Of a stretch of DNA of 39,987 bases, positions 18,695-39,635 are shown in pieces (the first letter of the stretch is position 1; each line of letters begins with the position of its first letter). Both the position numbers and the translations under genes were made by a program. Source of the DNA: a virus. The notes under the pieces are model-generated. The model searched no databases and was not told the DNA's origin. It was given only the letters and a program-made list of their open reading frames with translations. The stretch spans positions 1 to 39,987 of IMG/VR virus record IMGVR_UViG_3300028800_000185. The stretch is one strand, 5' to 3'.

Positions 18695-19819
18695 TTAAGG
18701 ACTAGAATAGTCGTAAAATTGGGCTCTCCAATATATGACATCAGCATTCGCACCAACAAGCACTGAGCTTGTTAGGTTAGTGCCAACTCCAACACCAATG
18801 GTGAATCCAGAAGCGGTGTTATTTACAAACGCTCCTCGGATTGCAGGACCATTGATAGCTGTAACTCTGTTAGTTGAGGTTGGGAATGACGGTGATGGAT
18901 AAAGATTACCACCAGTATACGCCAATCCACCTGTACTAACATCGCCAACTGCCACAACTTGTGGGAAAGACAGACCAGGAACACTTGCCACTGTTTGGTT
19001 AGTGTTAAAGGCTGTAAAACCTGTTGAAACAGCATTACATACGAACGTCGTGTTATTTGTAACAGACGATACGAAGTAATAAACAGGCGATCCAGGAGTT
19101 AGACCATTAGGAAGTGTATTCAGTTGGGTTGTACCCCAAGAAGACGGAATCCTAAAGGCTATTTCCTGACCTACTTCAAAGTTATGGTTTGCAGTTGTTA
19201 CAACTGTTGTTGTTGCGCCAGTTGTAATTGCTTCAATATAAGCAACCGCGGGTTCATACATGAATGGGTAAAGAACCTTCTTCACATACGCACCAGCTGG
19301 TGAGCCTGACAGAGCAGTATAGTTAGAACCAGCACCTGGCCATACTACGCTGAAATGGTTAGCATCACCGACAGCACTGATAACAAAAGGCATTCCACTA
19401 ATTTGTGGCATACCAGTTGTTGCAGATTGATACAAACCTTCGAATACAACAGTATCACCCACAGAATAACCGTGAGCAGTAACGTTGAAAACGATTGGGT
19501 TTGCAGCTGTAGCACCAATAATTTGCTGTTGAGGGCCAAATTGTAGTGCTAGTCCTGCGCTGAATGTACTAATACCATTAGCTACTACGCTGTCTGCTAC
19601 AAGTACTGGAGTTGCGTTATAAACGCCTGTTTCAAGAGCGAACCCTTGACCCATTTGTACATCCCAGAAAGCAGAGACTACTTTGTTCGCAGTTGGAGCT
19701 GCGTTAGCATTGGTATAGTTCCAAAGCTCTACAGTTTGAGGAGCGAACGGAAGATAAATAACCTTCGTTGCGCCTGTAGATGTAAAGCTACCTTTTGCAA
19801 TTCTTGAATACTCAGCCAT
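18695..19819 (-). CDS. Head decoration-type protein with FCCH-like beta domains
   Basis: A 374-residue protein encoded directly after the capsid gene. The N-terminus (RIAKGSFTSTGATKVIYLPF) leads into two beta domains: one near residues 100-165 (GATAANPIVFNVTAHGYSVG, then DTVVFEGLYQ) and one near 190-300 (ATTTVVTTANHNFEVGQEIA). Both have the N-H-x-Y/F-x-V-G-x-x-V/I signature of FCCH-like phage domains. The last part (FTIGVGVGTNLTSSVLVGAN) looks like another small beta domain. Capsid decoration or stabilisation is inferred from position and composition. Confidence 0.62.
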   Translation of the reverse strand: MAEYSRIAKGSFTSTGATKVIYLPFAPQTVELWNYTNANAAPTANKVVSAFWDVQMGQGFALETGVYNATPVLVADSVVANGISTFSAGLALQFGPQQQIIGATAANPIVFNVTAHGYSVGDTVVFEGLYQSATTGMPQISGMPFVISAVGDANHFSVVWPGAGSNYTALSGSPAGAYVKKVLYPFMYEPAVAYIEAITTGATTTVVTTANHNFEVGQEIAFRIPSSWGTTQLNTLPNGLTPGSPVYYFVSSVTNNTTFVCNAVSTGFTAFNTNQTVASVPGLSFPQVVAVGDVSTGGLAYTGGNLYPSPSFPTSTNRVTAINGPAIRGAFVNNTASGFTIGVGVGTNLTSSVLVGANADVIYWRAQFYDYSSP

Positions 19820-20487
19820 TATACACCTCCATTGGTGATCGCTCTAGTACAGAGCAAGTTTCTGATGGCAGTATCTTGCGTAATCGCTTGCGCTTGAGCA
19901 AACTTAACGGCAAGAGTTGCGTTCTGTGCGAGCATACCAGAGTAGTATGGGTCTCTATAAATCAGGTTCATAGAGTATCCATCCTGATTGATATGCGTCA
20001 CTGCCTGCTTACCAACAACAGAGTTGTAGTAAACATCAGCACCACTAGCTGAGGAAAGTCTCGCTACTGGAGCTTCTGAACTTGTCAGAATTCGGCAGTT
20101 GAATACGTTTCCGTACTCAGACGGCAGAGCTTCTGCGTTGTGAGGATAGTTCCACACAGACAAGAAACCTTGTCCTGTTAGGCTATCAAAGTCCGGTTGT
20201 AGCTCAGTTGAGGAGAGCATAAAGTATGAGCTCCTTACTGGGCCTGTTCCGAACTTGTTCTCACCTTCGATACCGCTCATAAACTTATAAGCGTTATTAG
20301 TATCGAGTGTTGCCACAACAACCGAGAAATCCGTGATTCCTAGGTTTGTTGGGTTGTCACCATTTACACCGCCAGCTGCGTTTATTTGTGACGCTGCTGA
20401 GACGATGTAGTCTCTTAAGATCAAGTCTTCTGCTTGTCTCATGGCAACAGCTAATCTCTCTGAAACCCAAGCCAAAACACCTTCTTG
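19819..20487 (-). CDS. Major capsid protein, exon 4 (bulk of the protein)
   Basis: Exon 4 codes for 222 residues beginning QEGVLAWVSERLAVAMRQAE and ending ITNGGV. The string AWVSERLAVAMRQAEDLILRD and the later ILTSSEAPVAR, then GADVYYNSVVGKQAVTHI fit a HK97-fold major capsid protein, most like the N4-gp56 type. Without splicing, the frame would begin only at an internal TTG (20475) with no ribosome site and would lack the N-terminal arm. Joined to exons 1-3 (22031-22074, 21777-21807, 21404-21574) the frame is continuous at every junction, giving 304 residues from the TTG at 22074. Residues between FFG (exon 3) and QEGV look fewer than in typical relatives, so a further micro-exon cannot be excluded. 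Confidence 0.75.
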   Translation of the reverse strand, partial: QEGVLAWVSERLAVAMRQAEDLILRDYIVSAASQINAAGGVNGDNPTNLGITDFSVVVATLDTNNAYKFMSGIEGENKFGTGPVRSSYFMLSSTELQPDFDSLTGQGFLSVWNYPHNAEALPSEYGNVFNCRILTSSEAPVARLSSASGADVYYNSVVGKQAVTHINQDGYSMNLIYRDPYYSGMLAQNATLAVKFAQAQAITQDTAIRNLLCTRAITNGGV

Positions 20488-21403
20488 CGAATTGTTACTC
20501 CTCTTGCGAGGGGACCAGTCATTTCTGCTGATCTCTCATGCTTTCGTCATGAGACCCGACTATCGCTTTACACGAACCTTCCGGAAACCCCAGAAAGTTG
20601 TTTTTATTTCGTGTATCCAACCGCTTTAGTCTGTCACGGTGGACTTAAATACACTTCAGGTGTATACTAGTTGGTGAACCTGTACAAAAGGAGTACCATG
20701 GTGTTCAACAACATCGACCATAAACATAGAATCAAATACGTTCCTAAACAACACGATCCACTTCATCTTGCATATCTTGCTGGTATTGTTGATGGAGAGG
20801 GATGTTTTCATGCTTGTAAGCTTAAAAACAAACCCAATGATGGCTATAAAAACGGCCACTATAGGTGTGTTTTGAAGGTTTCCAATACTGACATCCGTCT
20901 CTTTCATTGGCTTCAAGACACGTTTAGCGGCACATGTTCTGCTGCCTTTAAAGAAACCAGAGATAAACTCTTTAAAAGAGACTGCTATGAATGGGTGGTT
21001 ACGGGACATAGACTTCTCGACTTGTGTCGTCAAATCTTGCCCTATCTTATTATTAAAAAACGTCATTGCGAGCTTGTCATTAAGTTTAGAGAATCCTTTC
21101 CCATGCATTTGGGCAGAGGAAATCGTGAAATCACTCCCGAAGAACAAGTTCTTAGAGAAGATTGCATTTCTGAGATCAAGAAACTTAATGCTAGAGTTCG
21201 CTCTATTCCACATTGTAAAGTCCTTTAAGTCCTTCCGCCTTGTTTCCATGCCACCCTTTGGGGTGGTTTAGGGGTCCAAGTCAATTAGGTCAGATTTATA
21301 CAAGACCAATATAATAAAAAATCTTGTAAAATAACTTGTTCGTTAATTACGCAACCAGTCTTTCGTAATTATAGTTATTAAATTCGGCACTGTTAATTTC
21401 ACA
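20488..21403 (-). mobile_element. Group I intron 3 of the capsid gene, 916 nt, with antisense homing gene
   Basis: Read on the minus strand. The upstream exon end TTCGGT pairs with GCCGAA about 18 nt inside the intron, giving P1 with the required U-G at the splice site. Core parts are visible: the P element AATTGACTTGG near 21275-21285, R at 20621-20642 (CACCGTGACAGACTA), S at 20553-20570 with TAGTC to close P7, and an extended P8 (ACACGAA/TTCGTGT). The 3' end is AGTAACAATTCG. Splicing here joins GGT to CAA with no frame change. The LAGLIDADG gene lies on the opposite strand between the P and R elements. Confidence 0.78.
20698..21228 (+). CDS. LAGLIDADG homing endonuclease, antisense inside intron 3
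   Basis: A 176-residue protein from ATG at 20698, chosen because AAAGGAG precedes it by four bases; an in-frame TTG at 20671 has no such site. One LAGLIDADG motif is present (LAYLAGIVDGEGCF, about residues 24-37), so it would act as a homodimer that cuts intron-less capsid alleles. Later parts (VSNTDIRLFHWLQDTF, KRDCYEWVVTGHRLLDLCRQ) fit the family fold. It is transcribed opposite to the capsid gene, so it cannot be made from the late transcript and needs a plus-strand promoter. Confidence 0.82.
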   Translation: MVFNNIDHKHRIKYVPKQHDPLHLAYLAGIVDGEGCFHACKLKNKPNDGYKNGHYRCVLKVSNTDIRLFHWLQDTFSGTCSAAFKETRDKLFKRDCYEWVVTGHRLLDLCRQILPYLIIKKRHCELVIKFRESFPMHLGRGNREITPEEQVLREDCISEIKKLNARVRSIPHCKVL

Positions 21404-21574
21404 ACCGAAAAACGCCATCTGCGCATCAATGATGTCGCGTTGCGGCACTTGGGCAGGGGGATCGATCCCGCTGTTACCAAGTTGAACCGTAGGAGGCGTT
21501 AGCGCCCTAGGTCTCATAAATCGGCATGTTGTGCCGCCATTTGCTGGCATACTAACCTTGTCACACACCAAAAT
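21404..21574 (-). CDS. Major capsid protein, exon 3
   Basis: 171 nt, 57 codons: ILVCDKVSMPANGGTTCRF, then MRPRALTPPTVQLGN and DIIDAQMAFFG. The pattern K-x-x-M-P-x-N-x-G-T-x-x-R-F-x-R is the N-terminal hallmark of N4-gp56-like capsid proteins (the E-loop and N-arm region). The exon begins after the intron end AGTAACAGCATG and stops at the U of GGT, both by intron rules. Downstream in the genomic frame the sequence runs into intron and stops at 21347, so it makes no sense without splicing. Confidence 0.75.
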
Positions 21575-21776
21575 CATGCTGTTACTTTTATGACCTATCG
21601 CTAGGCGGGAAAACCTCTTCGGATTCTCCTCTCTATATTGCTATAGAGTTCAGACTATCACATACGCTTTCGCGTCCAATGGGTTTAGTCGTTCACGCTA
21701 CCATTACGCTTGCGCCTTGTTGTCCACAGGGGAGTTCCAAGTCAATTACCATCGGTTTTAGAACTACAAATCGTTA
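21575..21776 (-). ncRNA. Group I intron 2 of the capsid gene, 202 nt, no ORF
   Basis: A compact ribozyme. P1 pairs the exon end GAACTAT with GTAGTTC (seven pairs including the terminal U-G). The P element is AATTGACTTGGAACTCC, R is GTGAACGACTAAACC (21681-21696), S contains GATAGTCTGAAC (21649-21663), giving P7 as GACTA/TAGTC. P8 is ACGC-GAAA-GCGT, a GNRA-type cap. P9 is TCTATA-GCAA-TATAGA. It ends AGTAACAGCATG. At about 200 nt it is among the short functional group I introns. No protein is encoded. Confidence 0.82.
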
Positions 21777-21807
21777 ATAGTTCATTGTGGGAGTAGGGAC
21801 ATATAAC
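21777..21807 (-). CDS. Major capsid protein, exon 2 (31-nt micro-exon)
   Basis: Only 31 nt between two introns. With the last two bases of exon 1 (AT) its first base G completes an ATG codon; the rest reads LYVPTPTMNY and ends on a full codon. Spliced, the protein reads LAPAM-LYVPTPTMNY-ILVCDKVSMP, a natural-looking capsid N-arm. Its 5' border depends on a 13-nt version of the shared intron end (AGTAACAGATATG) instead of 12 nt, so a one-base shift is possible but would break the frame. Confidence 0.65.
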
Positions 21808-22030
21808 CATATCTGTTACTTTCGGTATTAACCTACTGACCATTTCTGGCGGGGAAACCTCTTCGGATCTCCCTCTCTACCTTCTTTTTATACGTAGAGG
21901 TCAGACTGTTGCATAGTCTTTTCAGACTCCATCGCGCTCAGTCGTTCACGGTGTATTTAAACTTCCGCCTCGTTACCCCATCGGGCTTCCGAGTCAATCA
22001 GCGACGGTTTTTCTGCCACATTATATGTTT
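21808..22030 (-). ncRNA. Group I intron 1 of the capsid gene, 223 nt, no ORF
   Basis: P1 pairs the exon end CTGCCAT with GTGGCAG 11 nt into the intron, again with a terminal U-G. The core has a GATTGACTCGGAAGCCC P element, R as CGTGAACGACTGAGCGC (21934-21951), S as GCAACAGTCTGACC (21901-21912), so P7 is GACTG/CAGTC. P8 is AGTCT-GAAA-AGACT. The 3' part CCGAAGAGGTTTCCCCGCC is shared with introns 2 and the portal intron. It ends AGTAACAGATATG. No protein is encoded. Confidence 0.8.
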
Positions 22031-22074
22031 ATGGCAGGGGCTAAGCTCTGCAATATCATAGGACCTAAGTTCAA
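22031..22074 (-). CDS. Major capsid protein, exon 1 (start uncertain)
   Basis: The in-frame part reads LNLGPMILQSLAPA from TTG at 22074 (or ATG at 22059 with an AGG site). The best translation signal, AAAGGA followed by ATG at 22094 (MSITTTG), is out of frame by one base and meets TGA at once. Adding one G to the run at about 22075-22077 would join MSITTTG to LNLGPM and give a 311-residue protein with a typical capsid N-terminus. So either a base is missing in this sequence, or the gene is really frameshifted, or the weak TTG/ATG start is used. Confidence 0.55.
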
Positions 22075-22211
22075 CCCGTGGTCGTAATACTCATGGACTA
22101 ATTCCTTTGTAGTATTATTCCTGATATGATATACTAAACCGTAGGCGATACGTGTTACGCCTGTTCTTAGTACATTAGAATGGAAGTTGCGAAATCTTCC
22201 TACGCATTTGC

Positions 22212-22228
22212 CTTGACGCCGACAAGCG
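22212..22228. repeat. 17-bp repeat upstream of the capsid gene
   Basis: The bases CTTGACGCCGACAAGCG at 22212-22228 recur exactly at 23809-23825, just upstream of the scaffold gene. The element contains the inverted pair CTTG/CAAG around a 7-base centre, so it could fold in RNA or bind a protein. Here it lies 118 bases upstream of the capsid ATG at 22094. Confidence 0.6.
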
Positions 22229-22257
22229 AAATTTCAATATATCATAAAAAGGATTTT

Positions 22258-22893
22258 ATGGAACTAATCGATAAAAGATTTGGCAAATGGACAGTTCTTT
22301 CTTATGAGGGAAGAGGCCCCACTAGGGCCTTTTTATACAAAGTTAAATGCGACTGTGGCAAAGAATCTATCACTGACAAAATAGCCTTAACTAGAGGAAA
22401 AAGCACTCAATGTCGTTCATGTGCCAGAAAGATCAGCACCTCTGGATCTAAAAATCCTTCTCATAAACACGGTTATTCTTCTATTTCTCATCCATATTTC
22501 AGAGTATATACAGCGTGGTGTACCATGAAAAGTCGTTGCTATCGCCAAAAGGATAAGAACTTTCAAAGATATGGGGCCGTAGGAATAAAGGTTTGTGATG
22601 AATGGTTAGAAAGTTTTGAAAGATTTCTTCTTGATATGGGGCACCCGCCAGAAAATCATACTTTGGATAGAATTAATGTTTATGGAAACTATTGCAAAGA
22701 AAATTGCAGATGGGCTAATCAGGAAACCCAGAGCAACAATTGTAGAAGAACTATTTACTATGAACACAAAGAAGAAAAACTCTCTGAAACTCAATGGTCC
22801 AGAAAACTAGGAATAACTAGAAATAAGACTATGTACTGGGCCCGAAAAAAAGGGATTCAATGGGTAATAGACAACCTTGAAACACTTAAATAA
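22258..22893 (+). CDS. Homing-type endonuclease (HNH-like), free-standing
   Basis: A 211-residue protein from ATG at 22258, placed after AAGGA by four bases; the longer frame from 22180 lies over the capsid upstream region and has no ribosome site. Residues 31-55 carry a zinc-ribbon-like pair (CDCG...CRSC). The core, YFRVYTAWCTMKSRCY, then RYGAVGIKVCDEWLESFERF and LDRINVYGNYCKENCRWANQ, is a common phage homing-endonuclease domain usually annotated as HNH. It lies between the small gene after scaffold and the capsid gene, on the opposite strand, with no intron core around it. Confidence 0.72.
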   Translation: MELIDKRFGKWTVLSYEGRGPTRAFLYKVKCDCGKESITDKIALTRGKSTQCRSCARKISTSGSKNPSHKHGYSSISHPYFRVYTAWCTMKSRCYRQKDKNFQRYGAVGIKVCDEWLESFERFLLDMGHPPENHTLDRINVYGNYCKENCRWANQETQSNNCRRTIYYEHKEEKLSETQWSRKLGITRNKTMYWARKKGIQWVIDNLETLK

Positions 22894-25048: not shown

Positions 25049-25657
25049 CTATGAACAAGCATTGTTATTTAAGTTCATTATAACACTGTGCCCATATTCT
25101 TCAAGGAATTCTTTGCACCATTTGACTTTGTCTTCTACACGTTGACCATATGGATGAGAATTAGACCAAAGCTCTAGGTTTTCTATAGTATTATCGTGTC
25201 TAATGCCGTTTTTATGGTGAACCGTTTCTCCTTTTCGTAGAGGTCTTCCTAAATGTTCGGACATAACAAAAACATGCTCAAAAATACCTCCTGTTCTCCA
25301 AGCATTCGGATGCCCTTTTTTGAATATTTGTTTATATCCATGCTTAGTTATAGTTCCGCTCCCTTTGGGACCACACCTCAAATCAGCATCAGATTCAATA
25401 CCATGTTTATTTCTATATCTTTGTTTTTCAGCTAAACTATGTTTAAGTCTATCCCTACGCCTTCCGGTTTTTAAAATTCTCGCTTTTTCATACTCATTTT
25501 TCTTTTTGCGAAGATCCGGATTCGCATTAAACTGGTCTAATTTTCTTTTTTGTGCCGCCTTACGAAGACAAATTCGAGAACACCACTTTGAATGAGAAAC
25601 GGGGGGTTTAAATTCTTTTAAACACCAAGGACATGTATACATATATACAGTATACAA
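25049..25657 (-). CDS. HNH homing endonuclease, free-standing
   Basis: Up to 202 residues; the ATG at 25642 (MYTCPWCLKEF) is an equally good start, as neither has a clear ribosome site. The N-terminus has a zinc-finger pair (CPWC...CSRIC). A basic helical linker follows. The HNH core is at the C-terminal third: FEHVFVMSEHLGRPLRKGE, then VHHKNGIRHDNTIENLELW with the His-His and Asn-Asn spacing of the family. It is placed between the small lipoprotein gene and small head genes. Base composition is more AT-rich than its neighbours, as expected for an acquired gene. Confidence 0.8.
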   Translation of the reverse strand: MYTVYMYTCPWCLKEFKPPVSHSKWCSRICLRKAAQKRKLDQFNANPDLRKKKNEYEKARILKTGRRRDRLKHSLAEKQRYRNKHGIESDADLRCGPKGSGTITKHGYKQIFKKGHPNAWRTGGIFEHVFVMSEHLGRPLRKGETVHHKNGIRHDNTIENLELWSNSHPYGQRVEDKVKWCKEFLEEYGHSVIMNLNNNACS

Positions 25658-25829: not shown

Positions 25830-27827
25830 CTACATTCCTTCGGGCTGTCCGCCCATTGGTTGTTGTTGACCACCCATTTGACCCAGAATCTCAGAGACAA
25901 ACTTATTCCCTTCAGCGGTCCTCTTAACTTCTCTCTTATCGTCATCTTCTTGCATATCAGTCATATAATCGTACGACTGTATCTGAGAAGCCGCAAGAGC
26001 CGTCTCTACCTCGCCGAACTTAGCAATGACTTCAACCATTTTTTCAATAGCCTCCATCTTAGCTTTAGTAGATAACGCCTTGTTCTTCTGAACCTCGGAG
26101 ATTCTTTCTTCAAACAAACCGATGTTGCTTTCATTTCTTCCATGTCTCTCACGGGCATTTGCTAAATTATTCATTGCTTTAGTATACATTTCTTTGAGTT
26201 TCGCTTCTTCAAAGGCATGTTGTACAGCCTGCATCTCTTGTTGTTGAGCGGCTTGCTGTTCACGCTGCTGCTTCAAGATCTCCATAAGCTCAGTTTTGCC
26301 CTGGATAGTCGCTTGAGAAGCAATGTAATCAGCAGGAATTATGCCACCAAGAATCTGGTTTAGCTCAAGAATCTGTTGGAAATGCTGTTGCTTTTGATTA
26401 GCTGTTAGTAGACCCTCTTCAACGATAGTTTGAAACTTAGAGAACACCTTAGAATAGAAGAAAGGCGTCGGCTCTTCGCCGATCATCAGCTTAACCTTCT
26501 CACCATTCCAGTTGTACTGAATAATCTGTAACAATCTTTCTCCAAGAAGCTTTAAAGATAGATCCCACTGATCAAAATACTTCTGGAGTACCATTAGATT
26601 CGCAGCTTGCTTAAGCATAACTGTCAGAGATGATGCTTGAGTGTTGTCTTGGGCCGACCACGTCTCTAAATTTACCCCAGAAGTAGAAAAGATAAGGGAC
26701 TGTAGCTGATCAGCAAGAGCCATATCAGACTCAGGAACAGCAGAAGGCATGATCTTCTCAACGTCCGTAAGCTCATAGCCTTCGTTAACGATTACATCCC
26801 ACCCTTGACCGGATTTCTTAAGGTTATCTTCATTGGCCACTGCACCGACTTTTCGCTTCCAGCCTGCATTGATCGTAGCTTCACTTATATCGTGGTTCAA
26901 AATTATGCGGCGATTTAGAAGGTAATTCGAGTCGCGCATAGTGCGCACCAATCCGCGGCAACGTAGATCATAGTAATTAATATGCGGTTCATAGTTCCAA
27001 AACACAGGTATAAATGGACAATCATCAAAACCTAGGGGGTTATCCCCGAGATACATTAGCTGATCATTAAGAACAGTAGCAAGTTTCCAACAAGGAACCT
27101 CTACTTCAACAACTTCGAAGTCACGAACATTATAAAGAATCGTCTCAAGATGTTCTTCACCACCTGTAAAATCGAAGAATTGATTACGTGATTTGCTGTA
27201 GAGTCTTTTCTTCTTCTTCTTCCATTTGTACCACACATAAGACAAGACCATTAAGTCGTTACGGGCCATGTTGTAGTTCTCAGGAAGGAAATAAAACGAT
27301 CCATAGCGTTGGGGCGTACCAGCCATCGGAGCAATCTTGTCGAACTTATCAGGGAAACGGAACTCGGCTTCTTTTTTAGAAATATATTCTTGACACCATA
27401 CGAATTGTGCGTCTGACATCGAACTATCACGGAAATAGGGGTCCACGAGAAATGAGGAGTATTCCCATACTTTTAATTTTAATGATCCTTGTGCTTGATC
27501 ATCCCCGTTATAGTCTAGGTAGGGTTGGAGTAGAACCATCCCAGTTATGCATGCTTGTTCGCATGCTCGTGAGAATTGCTCATGAATGCCTTCGGTATTG
27601 CATACATGCGTCATGATGCGCGTGTATTGATCAGTAGTTTGCGGGTCACCCCCTTCAGCAGGAATGTAGTTGATTTGCTTACGATGTTGGCGTTGATAAC
27701 CAGTCACCATATTGACAGGCTGTTGGAGCAGATTAAAGTAAAACTGCTGCTGGCTCGAGGATTGGTTGATCCCGAAGTAGCGGTTGATGAAGGTCTGCGA
27801 GCCTGCATAGAACAATGTGTCGATGTT
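25830..27827 (-). CDS. Portal protein, exon 2
   Basis: Exon 2 codes for 665 residues: NIDTLFYAGSQTFINRYFG at the start, then GYQRQHRKQINYIPAEGG, DPYFRDSSMSDAQFVWCQEY and GLVRTMRDSNYLLNRRIILN, which is the P22-like portal pattern. The C-terminal 150 residues form a Gln/Glu-rich coil (EILKQQREQQAAQQQEMQA) like the P22 barrel, ending in a Gly/Gln tail. Joined to exon 1 (28119-28187) the product is 688 residues, close to the P22-like size. Read unspliced, the frame would begin at a GTG at 27828-27830 that belongs to the intron end. Confidence 0.85.
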   Translation of the reverse strand, partial: NIDTLFYAGSQTFINRYFGINQSSSQQQFYFNLLQQPVNMVTGYQRQHRKQINYIPAEGGDPQTTDQYTRIMTHVCNTEGIHEQFSRACEQACITGMVLLQPYLDYNGDDQAQGSLKLKVWEYSSFLVDPYFRDSSMSDAQFVWCQEYISKKEAEFRFPDKFDKIAPMAGTPQRYGSFYFLPENYNMARNDLMVLSYVWYKWKKKKKRLYSKSRNQFFDFTGGEEHLETILYNVRDFEVVEVEVPCWKLATVLNDQLMYLGDNPLGFDDCPFIPVFWNYEPHINYYDLRCRGLVRTMRDSNYLLNRRIILNHDISEATINAGWKRKVGAVANEDNLKKSGQGWDVIVNEGYELTDVEKIMPSAVPESDMALADQLQSLIFSTSGVNLETWSAQDNTQASSLTVMLKQAANLMVLQKYFDQWDLSLKLLGERLLQIIQYNWNGEKVKLMIGEEPTPFFYSKVFSKFQTIVEEGLLTANQKQQHFQQILELNQILGGIIPADYIASQATIQGKTELMEILKQQREQQAAQQQEMQAVQHAFEEAKLKEMYTKAMNNLANARERHGRNESNIGLFEERISEVQKNKALSTKAKMEAIEKMVEVIAKFGEVETALAASQIQSYDYMTDMQEDDDKREVKRTAEGNKFVSEILGQMGGQQQPMGGQPEGM

Positions 27828-28118
27828 CACCCTGTTACTTAATGACTTACGTTTCCATAAGCGGGGTTCCCTCTTCGGAGATCCCTCTCTATGTTACCAT
27901 AGAGTTCAGACTGTCGCTTAGCCTTTCGGCTCCCTCTCACTCAGTCGTTCACGGTGCTTGCGCTTCCGCCTTGTCTTCCCATTGGGAGGTCCAAGTCAAT
28001 CAGAGAAGGTTTAACCAGAGCAATATGACTAACTCTGGTTCCATCGGCTTTGTTCTATAGGCTGAAACTTACTATAGAGATTGTCGCTTTTTTTCCGATG
28101 GAAAGTGACCCGACGTTA
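27828..28118 (-). ncRNA. Group I intron in the portal gene, 291 nt, no ORF
   Basis: P1 pairs the exon end AGTGGCTT with GGGTCACT, with U-G at the splice point. Long P2-type hairpins follow (TTCCATCGG/CCGATGGAA; CCAGAG/CTCTGG). The core is GATTGACTTGGACCTCC (P), CCGTGAACGACTGAGTG (R, 27938-27954) and GCGACAGTCTGAAC (S, 27905-27918), so P7 is GACTG/CAGTC. P8 is AGCC-GAAA-GGCT. The end is AGTAACAGGGTG, matching the capsid introns. Both flanking exons end and begin on full codons (TGG CTT | AAC ATC). Confidence 0.85.
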
Positions 28119-28187
28119 AAGCCACTGTCTTACATTTACTTGATTCGGCTCAAGAGAATTTTGCCATGGTGGATAGTAGAAACTCAA
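28119..28187 (-). CDS. Portal protein, exon 1
   Basis: 23 codons from TTG at 28187: MSFYYPPWQNSLEPN then QVNVRQWL, placed five bases after a strong GGAGG site (28193-28197 on the opposite strand as CCTCC). It is too short for gene finders, and would stop two codons into the intron (TAA) if unspliced. A short N-terminal exon like this is easy to miss and leaves the portal annotated with a false start. Confidence 0.72.
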
Positions 28188-28253: not shown

Positions 28254-28877
28254 TCAACTATTTCTTTTTTTAGCCCCTAATTTACCACCACAAGACTGAG
28301 AACAACACTTCGTTCTACTTGTTTTATCTTTAATAAACGATATTCCACACCAAGCACAGGTTGCCGTCACATCATAAAATCCATTTTTTCTATTCCAAGC
28401 TTTTTCACATCTAGCGCTACAAAATTTTGACCACGACTGACTCGTTTCTACTTCTTTTCCACAGTTTTGACAAATTATTATAGTTTTTTTTCTATTTTTC
28501 CACCCTTCTATAGCGTCTTTCCGTTGTCTTTCTCTTCCTTCTTTTGTTCTTAAATGAACATGCACCATTGGACGAATAGCATCTAATTGTTTTCTACGTT
28601 CTTTTCTTAATTCAGGGTCTTTCCAATGTTCCTTCAAATGATCGGAACGATTAAGCATTTGTAAATTTTCTATTTCATTATTGGATTTATCTCCATCTTT
28701 ATGATGGATATCCATGCCCTTGGGTATTGCACCATAATGATTTATCCACACCCATCGATGAGCATGAATAGGCATTATATTTGCCCAATATCCGTCTTTT
28801 TGCTTATAGAATCTTTTACCAAAATATATACGACGTTCTTTTTCCCCTTCTTCCATCCCCTCATTATACCAACCCAC
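28254..28877 (-). CDS. HNH homing endonuclease, free-standing
   Basis: Up to 207 residues from GTG at 28877; ATG at 28856 is an alternative and neither has a convincing ribosome site. The HNH core is N-terminal: AHRWVWINHYGAIPKGMDIH, then HKDGDKSNNEIENLQML. The C-terminal half carries zinc-finger-like pairs (CQNCGKEV...CSARC, CAWCGISF...CCSQSCG), probably for DNA recognition. It lies directly upstream of portal exon 1, 66 bases from the portal start, outside the intron. It may nonetheless be the mobility partner of the ORF-less portal intron. Confidence 0.8.
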   Translation of the reverse strand: MGWYNEGMEEGEKERRIYFGKRFYKQKDGYWANIMPIHAHRWVWINHYGAIPKGMDIHHKDGDKSNNEIENLQMLNRSDHLKEHWKDPELRKERRKQLDAIRPMVHVHLRTKEGRERQRKDAIEGWKNRKKTIIICQNCGKEVETSQSWSKFCSARCEKAWNRKNGFYDVTATCAWCGISFIKDKTSRTKCCSQSCGGKLGAKKRNS

Positions 28878-39032: not shown

Positions 39033-39313
39033 GAAATTACGTAATAGTTAGAACATATTCAGCAGGTGTTTTTGCTGGAACATTGAAATCAAGAGAAGGT
39101 AAAGAAGTAATTCTTACTAATGCTCGTCGTCTTTGGTATTGGTCAGGGGCTGCATCTTTATCACAACTAGCAATAGAAGGAGTATCTAGACCTCAAGAAT
39201 GTAAATTTCCTTGCGAAGTTGATGAAGTTATTTTAACTGAAGCAATAGAAATTTTACATGTTACTGACCTAGCAAAAAAATCAATTGATTCTGTCCCAAT
39301 TTGGAGCGTTTAA
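39023..39313 (+). CDS. DUF6948-like protein
   Basis: A 96-residue protein from ATG at 39023, which has GGAG ten bases upstream inside the end of the nuclease gene. The pattern YVIVRTYSAGVFAGTLKSRE, then ARRLWYWSGAASLSQLA and VDEVILTEAIEI is that of the DUF6948 family of phage proteins. It overlaps the exonuclease gene by 10 bases. The molecular role is unknown; a small beta-barrel shape is likely. Confidence 0.75.
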   Translation: MELGNYVIVRTYSAGVFAGTLKSREGKEVILTNARRLWYWSGAASLSQLAIEGVSRPQECKFPCEVDEVILTEAIEILHVTDLAKKSIDSVPIWSV

Positions 39314-39314
39314 A

Positions 39315-39635
39315 ATGTTAGATAAAGAGACTTTGATCAATGGCACTGGCTTTGGCTTTGGCTTTGGCTCTGGAGATGGCTATGGCTCTGGCTATGGCTC
39401 TGGCGATGGCTCTGGCAATGGCTCTGGCGATGGCGATGGCTCTGGCGATGGCTCTGGCTCTGGCGATGGCTCTGGCGATGGCTATGGCGATGGCGATGCC
39501 TATGGAGATGGCTCTGGCGATGCCTATGGAGATGGTTATAGCTCTGGCTCTGGCTCTGGAGATGGCTCTGGCGATGGCTATGGCGATGGCGATGGCTCTG
39601 GCGATGGCCATGGCCATGGCTATGGCAATGGATAG
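39315..39635 (+). CDS. Gly-Asp-Ser-Tyr repeat protein
   Basis: A 106-residue protein from ATG at 39315 with GGAG nine bases before. After MLDKETLINGTGFGFGFGS it is almost only Gly at every second place, with Ser, Asp or Tyr between (GSGDGYGSGYGSGDGSG). DNA is a (GGCxxx)n hexamer array, so its length can change by slippage. Similar repeat proteins start MLDKETLINGTG next to DUF6948-like genes in some phages I recall. It is likely disordered and acidic; it may bind cations or form a phase-separating layer. Confidence 0.65.
   Translation: MLDKETLINGTGFGFGFGSGDGYGSGYGSGDGSGNGSGDGDGSGDGSGSGDGSGDGYGDGDAYGDGSGDAYGDGYSSGSGSGDGSGDGYGDGDGSGDGHGHGYGNG
39340..39632 (+). repeat. Hexanucleotide tandem repeat array
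   Basis: About 49 degenerate units of GGC followed by TCT, GAT, TAT or TTT. GGC is kept nearly every time while the second codon alternates. All three plus-strand frames stay open through much of it, which explains the long false frames of Ala-Met-Leu and Ala-Ile-Arg in other readings. Confidence 0.8.

Follow-up and report, generated by a model that had tools for sequence, protein, structure and literature searches.

The group I introns of T4, Twort and Bastillevirinae phages are known to occur several to a gene, with small exons and exon skipping (PMC3984707, PMC11878797), and PMC11878797, together with Landthaler & Shub 1999 cited there, likewise reports small exons and multi-intron phage genes. 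Ribosomes are barred from such introns by in-frame stops (PMC3073962, PMC3984707). Furthermore, stubs of ribozyme introns of ~90-120 nt without domain V are represented by the group III introns of Euglena chloroplasts, whose removal is thought to be due to machinery acting in trans (PMC4424553).

The window, i.e. the whole 39,987-nt stretch of IMG/VR record IMGVR_UViG_3300028800_000185 analysed here, contains interrupted capsid and portal genes (Table 1). Alignment to intronless relatives showed that the capsid gene, located on the minus strand, consists of five exons and four interruptions. Three of these (I1, I2 and I3), as well as the portal intron, resemble the self-splicing group I introns of phages. 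The fourth, a 44-nt insert, is homologous to inserts of 29-75 nt that occupy eight sites in the capsid and portal genes of an uncultivated phage clade. These mini-introns share with phage group I introns the exon U, a P1 with a U.G pair, P10 and a terminal G, but differ from them in their length, in the absence of a P3-P9 core and in their proposed reliance on another intron.

Table 1. Coordinates of capsid and portal gene features in the window
Feature	Position	Strand	Details
Capsid exon 1	22031..22094	-	Alignment to intronless relatives; conserved frame from codon 8 onward
I1, group I intron	21808..22030	-	223 nt; capsid codon 20 phase 2; P1 7 bp, P10 7 bp
Capsid exon 2	21777..21807	-	31 nt
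I2, group I intron	21575..21776	-	202 nt; capsid codon 31
Capsid exon 3	21404..21574	-	Terminal UUCGGU (21409-21404) is the P1 strand of the mini-intron
Capsid core-less mini-intron	21360..21403	-	44 nt; capsid codon 88; homologs at same site, covarying P1 and P10
Read-through tail CEINSAEFNNYNYERLVA-stop	21347..21403	-	Stop TAA 21349-21347; ssrA-like C-terminus
Capsid exon 4	21321..21359	-	39 nt; TGCVINEQVILQD; conserved in intronless relatives
I3, group I intron	20488..21320	-	833 nt; capsid codon 101; P1 UACAAGAU/GUCUUGUA, 8 bp
LAGLIDADG endonuclease ORF within I3	20671..21228	+	Pfam PF00961 E 1e-4; PHROG 5046 E 2e-22
Capsid exon 5	19819..20487	-	PHROG 1357 major head protein, E 5e-13
Portal exon 1	28120..28187	-	TTG start; alignment to intronless portal genes
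Portal core-less mini-intron	28087..28119	-	33 nt; codon 22 phase 2; p=0.001
Portal exon 2	28032..28086	-	55 nt
Portal group I intron	27828..28031	-	204 nt; P1 AACCAGAGU/GCUCUGGUU; R1 116 bits, E 2e-26
Portal exon 3	25830..27827	-	P22-like portal; Pfam PF16510

As an Rfam search reported no intron at gathering score, and solely unrelated weak matches at E<=5, a clade covariance model (R1) was built from the introns of relatives alone, excluding the window, with covarying P4/P6. R1 located the conserved catalytic core (P4-P6 and P7 region) in the portal intron, in I1 (21998-21809, 145 bits, E 2e-33), in I2 (21746-21575, 130 bits, E 1e-29) and, as two halves separated by the endonuclease ORF, in I3 (20634-20488, E 3e-5; 21285-21166, E 2e-3). 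Each of the four introns exhibits a P1 of 7-9 bp that closes with U.G at the 5' site, and its last nucleotide is G; I1, I2 and I3 are predicted to be ordinary, self-splicing group I introns. The endonuclease ORF of I3 is antisense to the capsid transcript. The covariance search, proposed in a preliminary description of this DNA, thus bears out its claim that three group I introns interrupt the capsid gene on the minus strand. Its boundaries for I1 and I2 also hold, relatives having introns at the same two codons, and the 31-nt exon that it placed between them is therefore correct. It had regarded this arrangement as rare: the three introns and the small exon are indeed present, yet small exons and multi-intron phage genes have already been reported (PMC11878797), and the unusual part, which it missed, is the core-less mini-intron with its putative encoded degradation tag.

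The preliminary description had further proposed a four-exon gene in which intron 3 starts at 21403, FFG is joined directly to QEGV and the spliced product comprises 304 residues. In intronless relatives, however, ...MAFFG and QEGVLAWV are separated by 13 conserved residues, TGCIINEQVILQD, and the window encodes the counterpart TGCVINEQVILQD at 21359-21321. Since all intronless relatives encode TGCIINEQVILQD at this location, these 39 nt represent an additional exon. The direct join was rejected because it loses the 13 conserved residues: the four-exon model had fused the core-less mini-intron with intron 3, which in fact starts at 21320, thereby removing coding sequence. Exon 4, the 44-nt insert, the portal group I intron with its 33-nt mini-intron and a 2-nt frame break had all gone unnoticed. 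Removal of the inserts restores a single conserved protein in the alignment to intronless relatives. The aligner granted a 1-point bonus for a T preceding an insert and a G closing it, which can tip the placement of boundaries where one base is ambiguous. The product was assigned as a phage major head protein based on its PHROG 1357 profile match and on the P22-like portal and terminase encoded upstream; a Pfam search of exon 5 gave no match, and no cultivated relative of the capsid was matched in INPHARED. Among cultivated phages, the portal matched only Pseudomonas phage phiR18, at 22% identity. The frame break (TG at 22073-22072) follows MSITTTG near the capsid start codon; an indel from sequencing or assembly, or termination-reinitiation via a TTGA overlap, may account for it.

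Each mini-intron is preceded by an exon U, forms P1 between an internal guide and the 5' exon, and ends in G, and in most cases a covarying P10 strand next to the guide pairs with the 3' exon; the boundaries are thus those of group I introns (U|...G| with P1 and P10). In the capsid mini-intron of the window, the P10 strand is CAGU (21392-21389), the guide GCCGAA (21388-21383) and the terminal G lies at 21360; minimum-energy folding of this insert did not show P1. In the portal mini-intron, guide GGUCACU pairs with exon AGUGGCU, and P10 is formed by GUCG/CGAC. At capsid site 88, P10 is paired at the free Thr-codon base in 28 of 29 unique mini-introns, with all four Watson-Crick types represented, and P1 likewise covaries; P10 is weak or absent in 3/29 (L087, L091 and L098). 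The combined P1 and P10 score of 19 pattern-free unique mini-introns was 237, compared with a shuffle mean of 69.6 (sd 11.2; z 15), and that of nine portal mini-introns was 105, compared with 16.6 (sd 7.0; z 12.7).

None of the mini-introns has room for a catalytic core, the 44 nt of the capsid insert included, and endonuclease-bearing versions of 946-976 nt gave no core match with the covariance model. As they are without a core of their own, the mini-introns are not filed here as group I introns, but as elements that work with group I signals. In all uncut mini-intron-bearing capsid and portal genes, the mini-intron is followed on its 3' side by a full group I intron of the same gene; in a capsid set selected on homology only, this was observed in 20/20 mini-intron-bearing genes (0 without), although these loci are related by descent and such counts are not independent. 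These partner introns possess a core, whereas the long core-less versions do not. Boundaries, P1 and P10 pairing with covariation, absence of a core and co-occurrence with a downstream core are thus shown. At portal site 32, a full intron was found in one phage and a mini-intron in two others.

With splice signals present and a catalytic core absent, the capsid mini-intron probably borrows the ribozyme of its neighbour, I3 being the presumed core donor. We consider it probable, on strong sequence evidence, that the mini-introns are non-autonomous group I mini-introns that are excised by a neighbouring ribozyme and act as translation gates, tagging read-through capsid for proteolysis. The mini-intron would retain the parts for splice-site recognition (U before the 5' site, a P1 guide with U.G end, the adjacent P10 and the terminal G), and the missing P3-P9 core would most likely be provided in cis by the next full group I intron of the gene. 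Before this core folds and acts, ribosomes would halt in or just past the mini-intron, short of the ribozyme, in a frame that closes with -AA or -VA. As this end is ssrA-like, the truncated capsid fragment would be directed to ClpXP-type proteases instead of poisoning capsid assembly. Splicing of the mini-intron, its removal by the neighbour's core and proteolysis brought about by the A-ended tag are each what these sequences would predict.

The reading frame of the unspliced RNA usually closes with ...AA-stop or ...VA-stop, as in ssrA degradation tags, these residues directly preceding the stop in the translated frame. A C-terminal Ala was observed in 38/40 capsid mini-introns and Ala-Ala in 31/40, versus 0/80 control frames; two capsid mini-introns and the portal mini-introns lack the A-A end. 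The full introns showed a corresponding pattern: Ala-Ala ends were found in 20 of 25 late introns without a mini-intron, 0/14 early introns and 3/39 located after a mini-intron. Where the stop lies within the exon, mini-intron length is 3n+2 in 19/19 and an ATA/GTA codon is present in 19/19, compared with 4/62 without a mini-intron. The C-terminal residues of the read-through frame were thereby shown to be under selection. While the ...AA or ...VA end is shared with ssrA (tmRNA) tags, here the putative tag is encoded in the gene's own introns, is followed by a normal stop and needs no ribosome stalling. In contrast to the in-frame stops of known group I introns, the stop can be located in a separate upstream mini-intron, and the residues before it resemble a degradation tag.

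It is improbable that these ends are side effects of RNA structure conservation or of the exon sequence rather than a degradation tag. A GCNGCNTAA or GCAGCGTGA stretch does lie within the P5 or P6 hairpins of several full introns, and the site 88 exon sequence ACTGGCTGC alone gives L-A-A in that frame; however, the same ending arises from different codons at different places, is absent from control frames (0/80 for mini-introns; 0/50 for late unshielded full introns) and from the early introns with the same core, and the stop-making ATA/GTA codon is present only where needed. A different objection concerns the source of the core: ribozymes acting in trans, from excised introns of any transcript of the same phage, could splice the mini-introns in place of the next cis intron. 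Group I cores are generally able to act on separate P1-bearing RNAs, and one mini-intron family adjoins different full introns (codons 101, 120, 122 and 144). Yet splicing in trans would not require a 3' full intron in the same gene, which every uncut mini-intron-bearing gene has, and in L092, L095, L101, L117 and portal L256 mini-introns and full introns alternate, which suggests cis pairing; we therefore regard splicing in trans as unlikely.

Retention of the inserts in mRNA and their skipping by ribosomes, cf. T4 gene 60 and mitochondrial byp elements, would suit inserts that are short, break the frame of a conserved gene and follow a Gly codon, and whose pairing with both exons would bring the two codons together. 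Translational bypassing was nevertheless rejected as very improbable on codon mismatch, as the codon before resumption encodes the take-off amino acid in 0/36 cases, i.e. matched take-off and landing codons are lacking. Moreover, it assigns no role to the group I signals found instead (the U.G end of P1 and the terminal G) or to the co-occurrence with group I cores, and some inserts contain a 290-codon endonuclease ORF. Decay of the capsid gene into a pseudogene with random small insertions, with which the 2-nt frame break near its start would agree, is scarcely credible: the exons encode a conserved protein, the same inserts, their pairing covarying, are shared by dozens of phages, and the gene is the sole capsid copy in the record, the preliminary description having named a separate intact copy as the observation that would contradict an interrupted gene.

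Excision by a neighbouring ribozyme would invite comparison with the Euglena group III introns, but these are group II-derived, plastid-located and have no defined neighbour supplying a core (PMC4424553); the analogy is one of logic alone. Searches of open PMC papers turned up neither core-less group I introns nor degradation tags encoded by introns. The core-less group I mini-introns, some endonuclease-carrying, may well constitute a new intron class that parasitises a neighbouring ribozyme, gates translation and tags read-through products. If so, two introns would share one ribozyme, and a single phage gene would couple intron, ribosome and protease quality control, resolving the bacterial conflict of coupled translation versus splicing by halting the ribosome upstream and marking the fragment for destruction. 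Group I introns could then turn non-autonomous, like transposons and group II introns, and persist as 30-75-nt stubs invisible to standard intron searches; metagenomic phage capsid and portal genes would therefore look broken and be misannotated. The mini-introns are short enough for direct in vitro testing.

Metagenome-assembled genomes (MAGs) with related contigs are labelled Bacteroidales, Chlamydiia, Simkania, Patescibacteria, Pseudomonadota, Nitrospiraceae and Peregrinibacteria, mutually inconsistent host labels that probably reflect binning noise. The tmRNA tags of these MAGs are mostly AA-ended.

In the window, a 39,987-base virus record, the exon boundaries of the capsid gene were defined by spliced alignment against the protein of intronless relatives, which resolved five exons and four interruptions on the minus strand. 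Group I cores were identified in three of these interruptions (I1, I2 and I3) using a covariance model built with the window left out, while Rfam models returned no match to any of the three. The three group I introns of the preliminary description, which had proposed four exons, are thus borne out as regards their cores, but the third had been drawn too long: it had absorbed exon 4, although the 13 residues of this exon are retained in intronless relatives. An antisense LAGLIDADG ORF (20671-21228) divides the I3 core in two. Two additional nucleotides (TG, 22073-22072) after codon 7, absent from the relatives inspected, break the frame past MSITTTG and create a TGA stop that overlaps a TTG, representing a possible assembly error or termination-reinitiation on that TTG.

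Features of the capsid and portal region of the window
Feature	Coordinates	Strand	Basis or location
Capsid exon 1	22094-22031	minus	spliced alignment
I1	22030-21808	minus	group I core by covariance model
Capsid exon 2	21807-21777	minus	spliced alignment
I2	21776-21575	minus	group I core by covariance model
Capsid exon 3	21574-21404	minus	spliced alignment
Capsid mini-intron, 44 nt	21403-21360	minus	spliced alignment
Capsid exon 4	21359-21321	minus	spliced alignment
I3	21320-20488	minus	group I core by covariance model
Capsid exon 5	20487-19819	minus	spliced alignment
HNH endonuclease ORF	22180-22893	plus	just upstream of capsid gene, antisense
HNH endonuclease ORF	25049-25657	minus	downstream of portal gene
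Portal group I intron, 204 nt	28031-27828		
Portal mini-intron, 33 nt	28119-28087		precedes portal group I intron
HNH endonuclease ORF	28254-28877	minus	between terminase and portal

Other phages of the clade carry inserts of 29-75 nt at the same place as the 44-nt insert, capsid codon 88, after the FFG codons; the first were found through protein homology alone and further ones through a pattern. In every case the last base of the preceding exon is U and the last base of the insert is G, and the protein is restored when the insert is removed. Each contains a guide to the 5' exon (GCCGAA against UUCGGU, or GCCAAA against UUUGGU), and in nearly all the first 3'-exon bases pair with the stretch directly 5' of this guide. 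All four Thr codons occur with a matching guide base (T-A 18, A-T 5, G-C 3, C-G 2; one mismatch), where P1 of pattern-found copies is biased by the pattern and the free P10 base is unconstrained by it. Judged from sequence, this layout is that of P1 and P10 of a group I intron minus the ribozyme (hereafter mini-intron). Further mini-introns, detected by the aligner with no guide pattern, lie at capsid codons 91, 104 and 114 and portal codons 7, 22, 32 and 36, and every one has a P1 and a P10 of its own. Shuffling tests gave z = 15.0 for 19 pattern-free mini-introns (two from portal), 15.1 for 23 pattern-found ones and 12.7 for nine from portal.

In the capsid set assembled by homology only, a full intron lay 3' of the mini-intron in 20/20 mini-bearing genes; nine genes had full introns without a mini-intron and 63 had neither (Fisher 1e-13, shared ancestry ignored). 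Across the whole set, in which genes ending at a contig end cannot count either way, the next intron lies at codon 96, 98, 101, 116, 120, 122 or 144, with a core present there. Capsid genes of four loci (L092, L095, L101 and L117) and the portal gene of L256 alternate mini, full, mini, full. The strongest rival to use of such a neighbouring core in cis is that mini-introns are removed by a core acting in trans. At portal site 32 the intron of L264 is full and those of L246 and L256 are mini-introns, suggesting that mini-introns derive from full introns through core loss.

Read in the exon frame, capsid mini-introns end their peptide in AA in 31/40 cases and in A in 38/40, compared with AA in 0/80 for the other two frames. 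Full introns without a mini-intron directly upstream showed the same AA end in 20/25 cases where they interrupt the protein after codon 35 and in 0/14 where they interrupt it earlier, and full introns already shielded by a mini-intron showed it in only 3/39; as a caveat to reading this end as an ssrA-like tag, the AA-stop of some full introns is located within P5/P6 hairpins. Two designs occur at codon 88: in one the stop lies within the mini-intron, whose length is free modulo 3, while in the other the next exon makes the stop, the length is 3n+2 in 19/19 and isoleucine/valine is encoded by ATA or GTA in 19/19, versus 4/62 in mini-less genes. It is difficult to account for this pattern without invoking selection on the C-terminus of the protein. 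The tmRNA tags of MAGs with related contigs are mostly AA-ended as well.

Mini-intron, I3 and tag probably work together, and from the sequences we infer mini-intron excision, neighbour-core use, the order of events and proteolysis. Exon 3, the mini-intron, exon 4 and then I3 would be transcribed in this order, and a ribosome trailing RNA polymerase would halt at the tag stop codon and be kept out of I3. The released capsid fragment, ending in -LVA or -LAA, would be degraded, which would matter because capsid fragments could poison assembly. The folded I3 core would take two P1 helices, its own and that of the mini-intron, and full translation would proceed only from RNA lacking both. A protective role of in-frame stops for group I introns has already been suggested (PMC3073962, PMC3984707), and phage genes are known to have several introns each, small exons and exon skipping (PMC11878797). 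Euglena group III introns, which are short group II stubs, are thought to need trans-acting help (PMC4424553). The open papers searched yielded no description of either a core-less group I intron or a degradation tag encoded by an intron.

At capsid site 104, five loci (L070, L161, L176, L177 and L207) carry a core-less insert of 946-976 nt with a sense LAGLIDADG ORF placed between stop and guide, so core-less elements may be mobile; these inserts correspond to mini-introns enlarged by the ORF, putatively mobile elements without their own ribozyme. In contrast to these sense versions, many introns located between capsid codons 96 and 122 contain LAGLIDADG ORFs that are antisense to intron and host gene, as in the window and in introns of L009, L026, L082, L113, L116 and L196.

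Another type of insert, 47-51 nt long and also frame-breaking, was observed at portal codon 36-37 of L222, L245, L260 and L281, consisting of a GC-rich palindrome (e.g. GGTCTAGCGCCCCTG...CAGGGGCGCTAGACC). The exon before it does not end in U, no group I core lies near these portal genes, and the insert could be a translational-bypass-like hairpin. Elsewhere in the window, 39285-39635 contains a highly repetitive, Gly-Ser-Asp-rich ORF, with other frames also open. Finally, unannotated I2-like stretches with 74-78% identity to about half of the window I2 were observed in Roseobacter phage CRP-118 (OR420741, 35073-35183) and Desulfovibrio phage 7757 (OR395405, 81312-81408), which are possible laboratory models for the I2-type intron.
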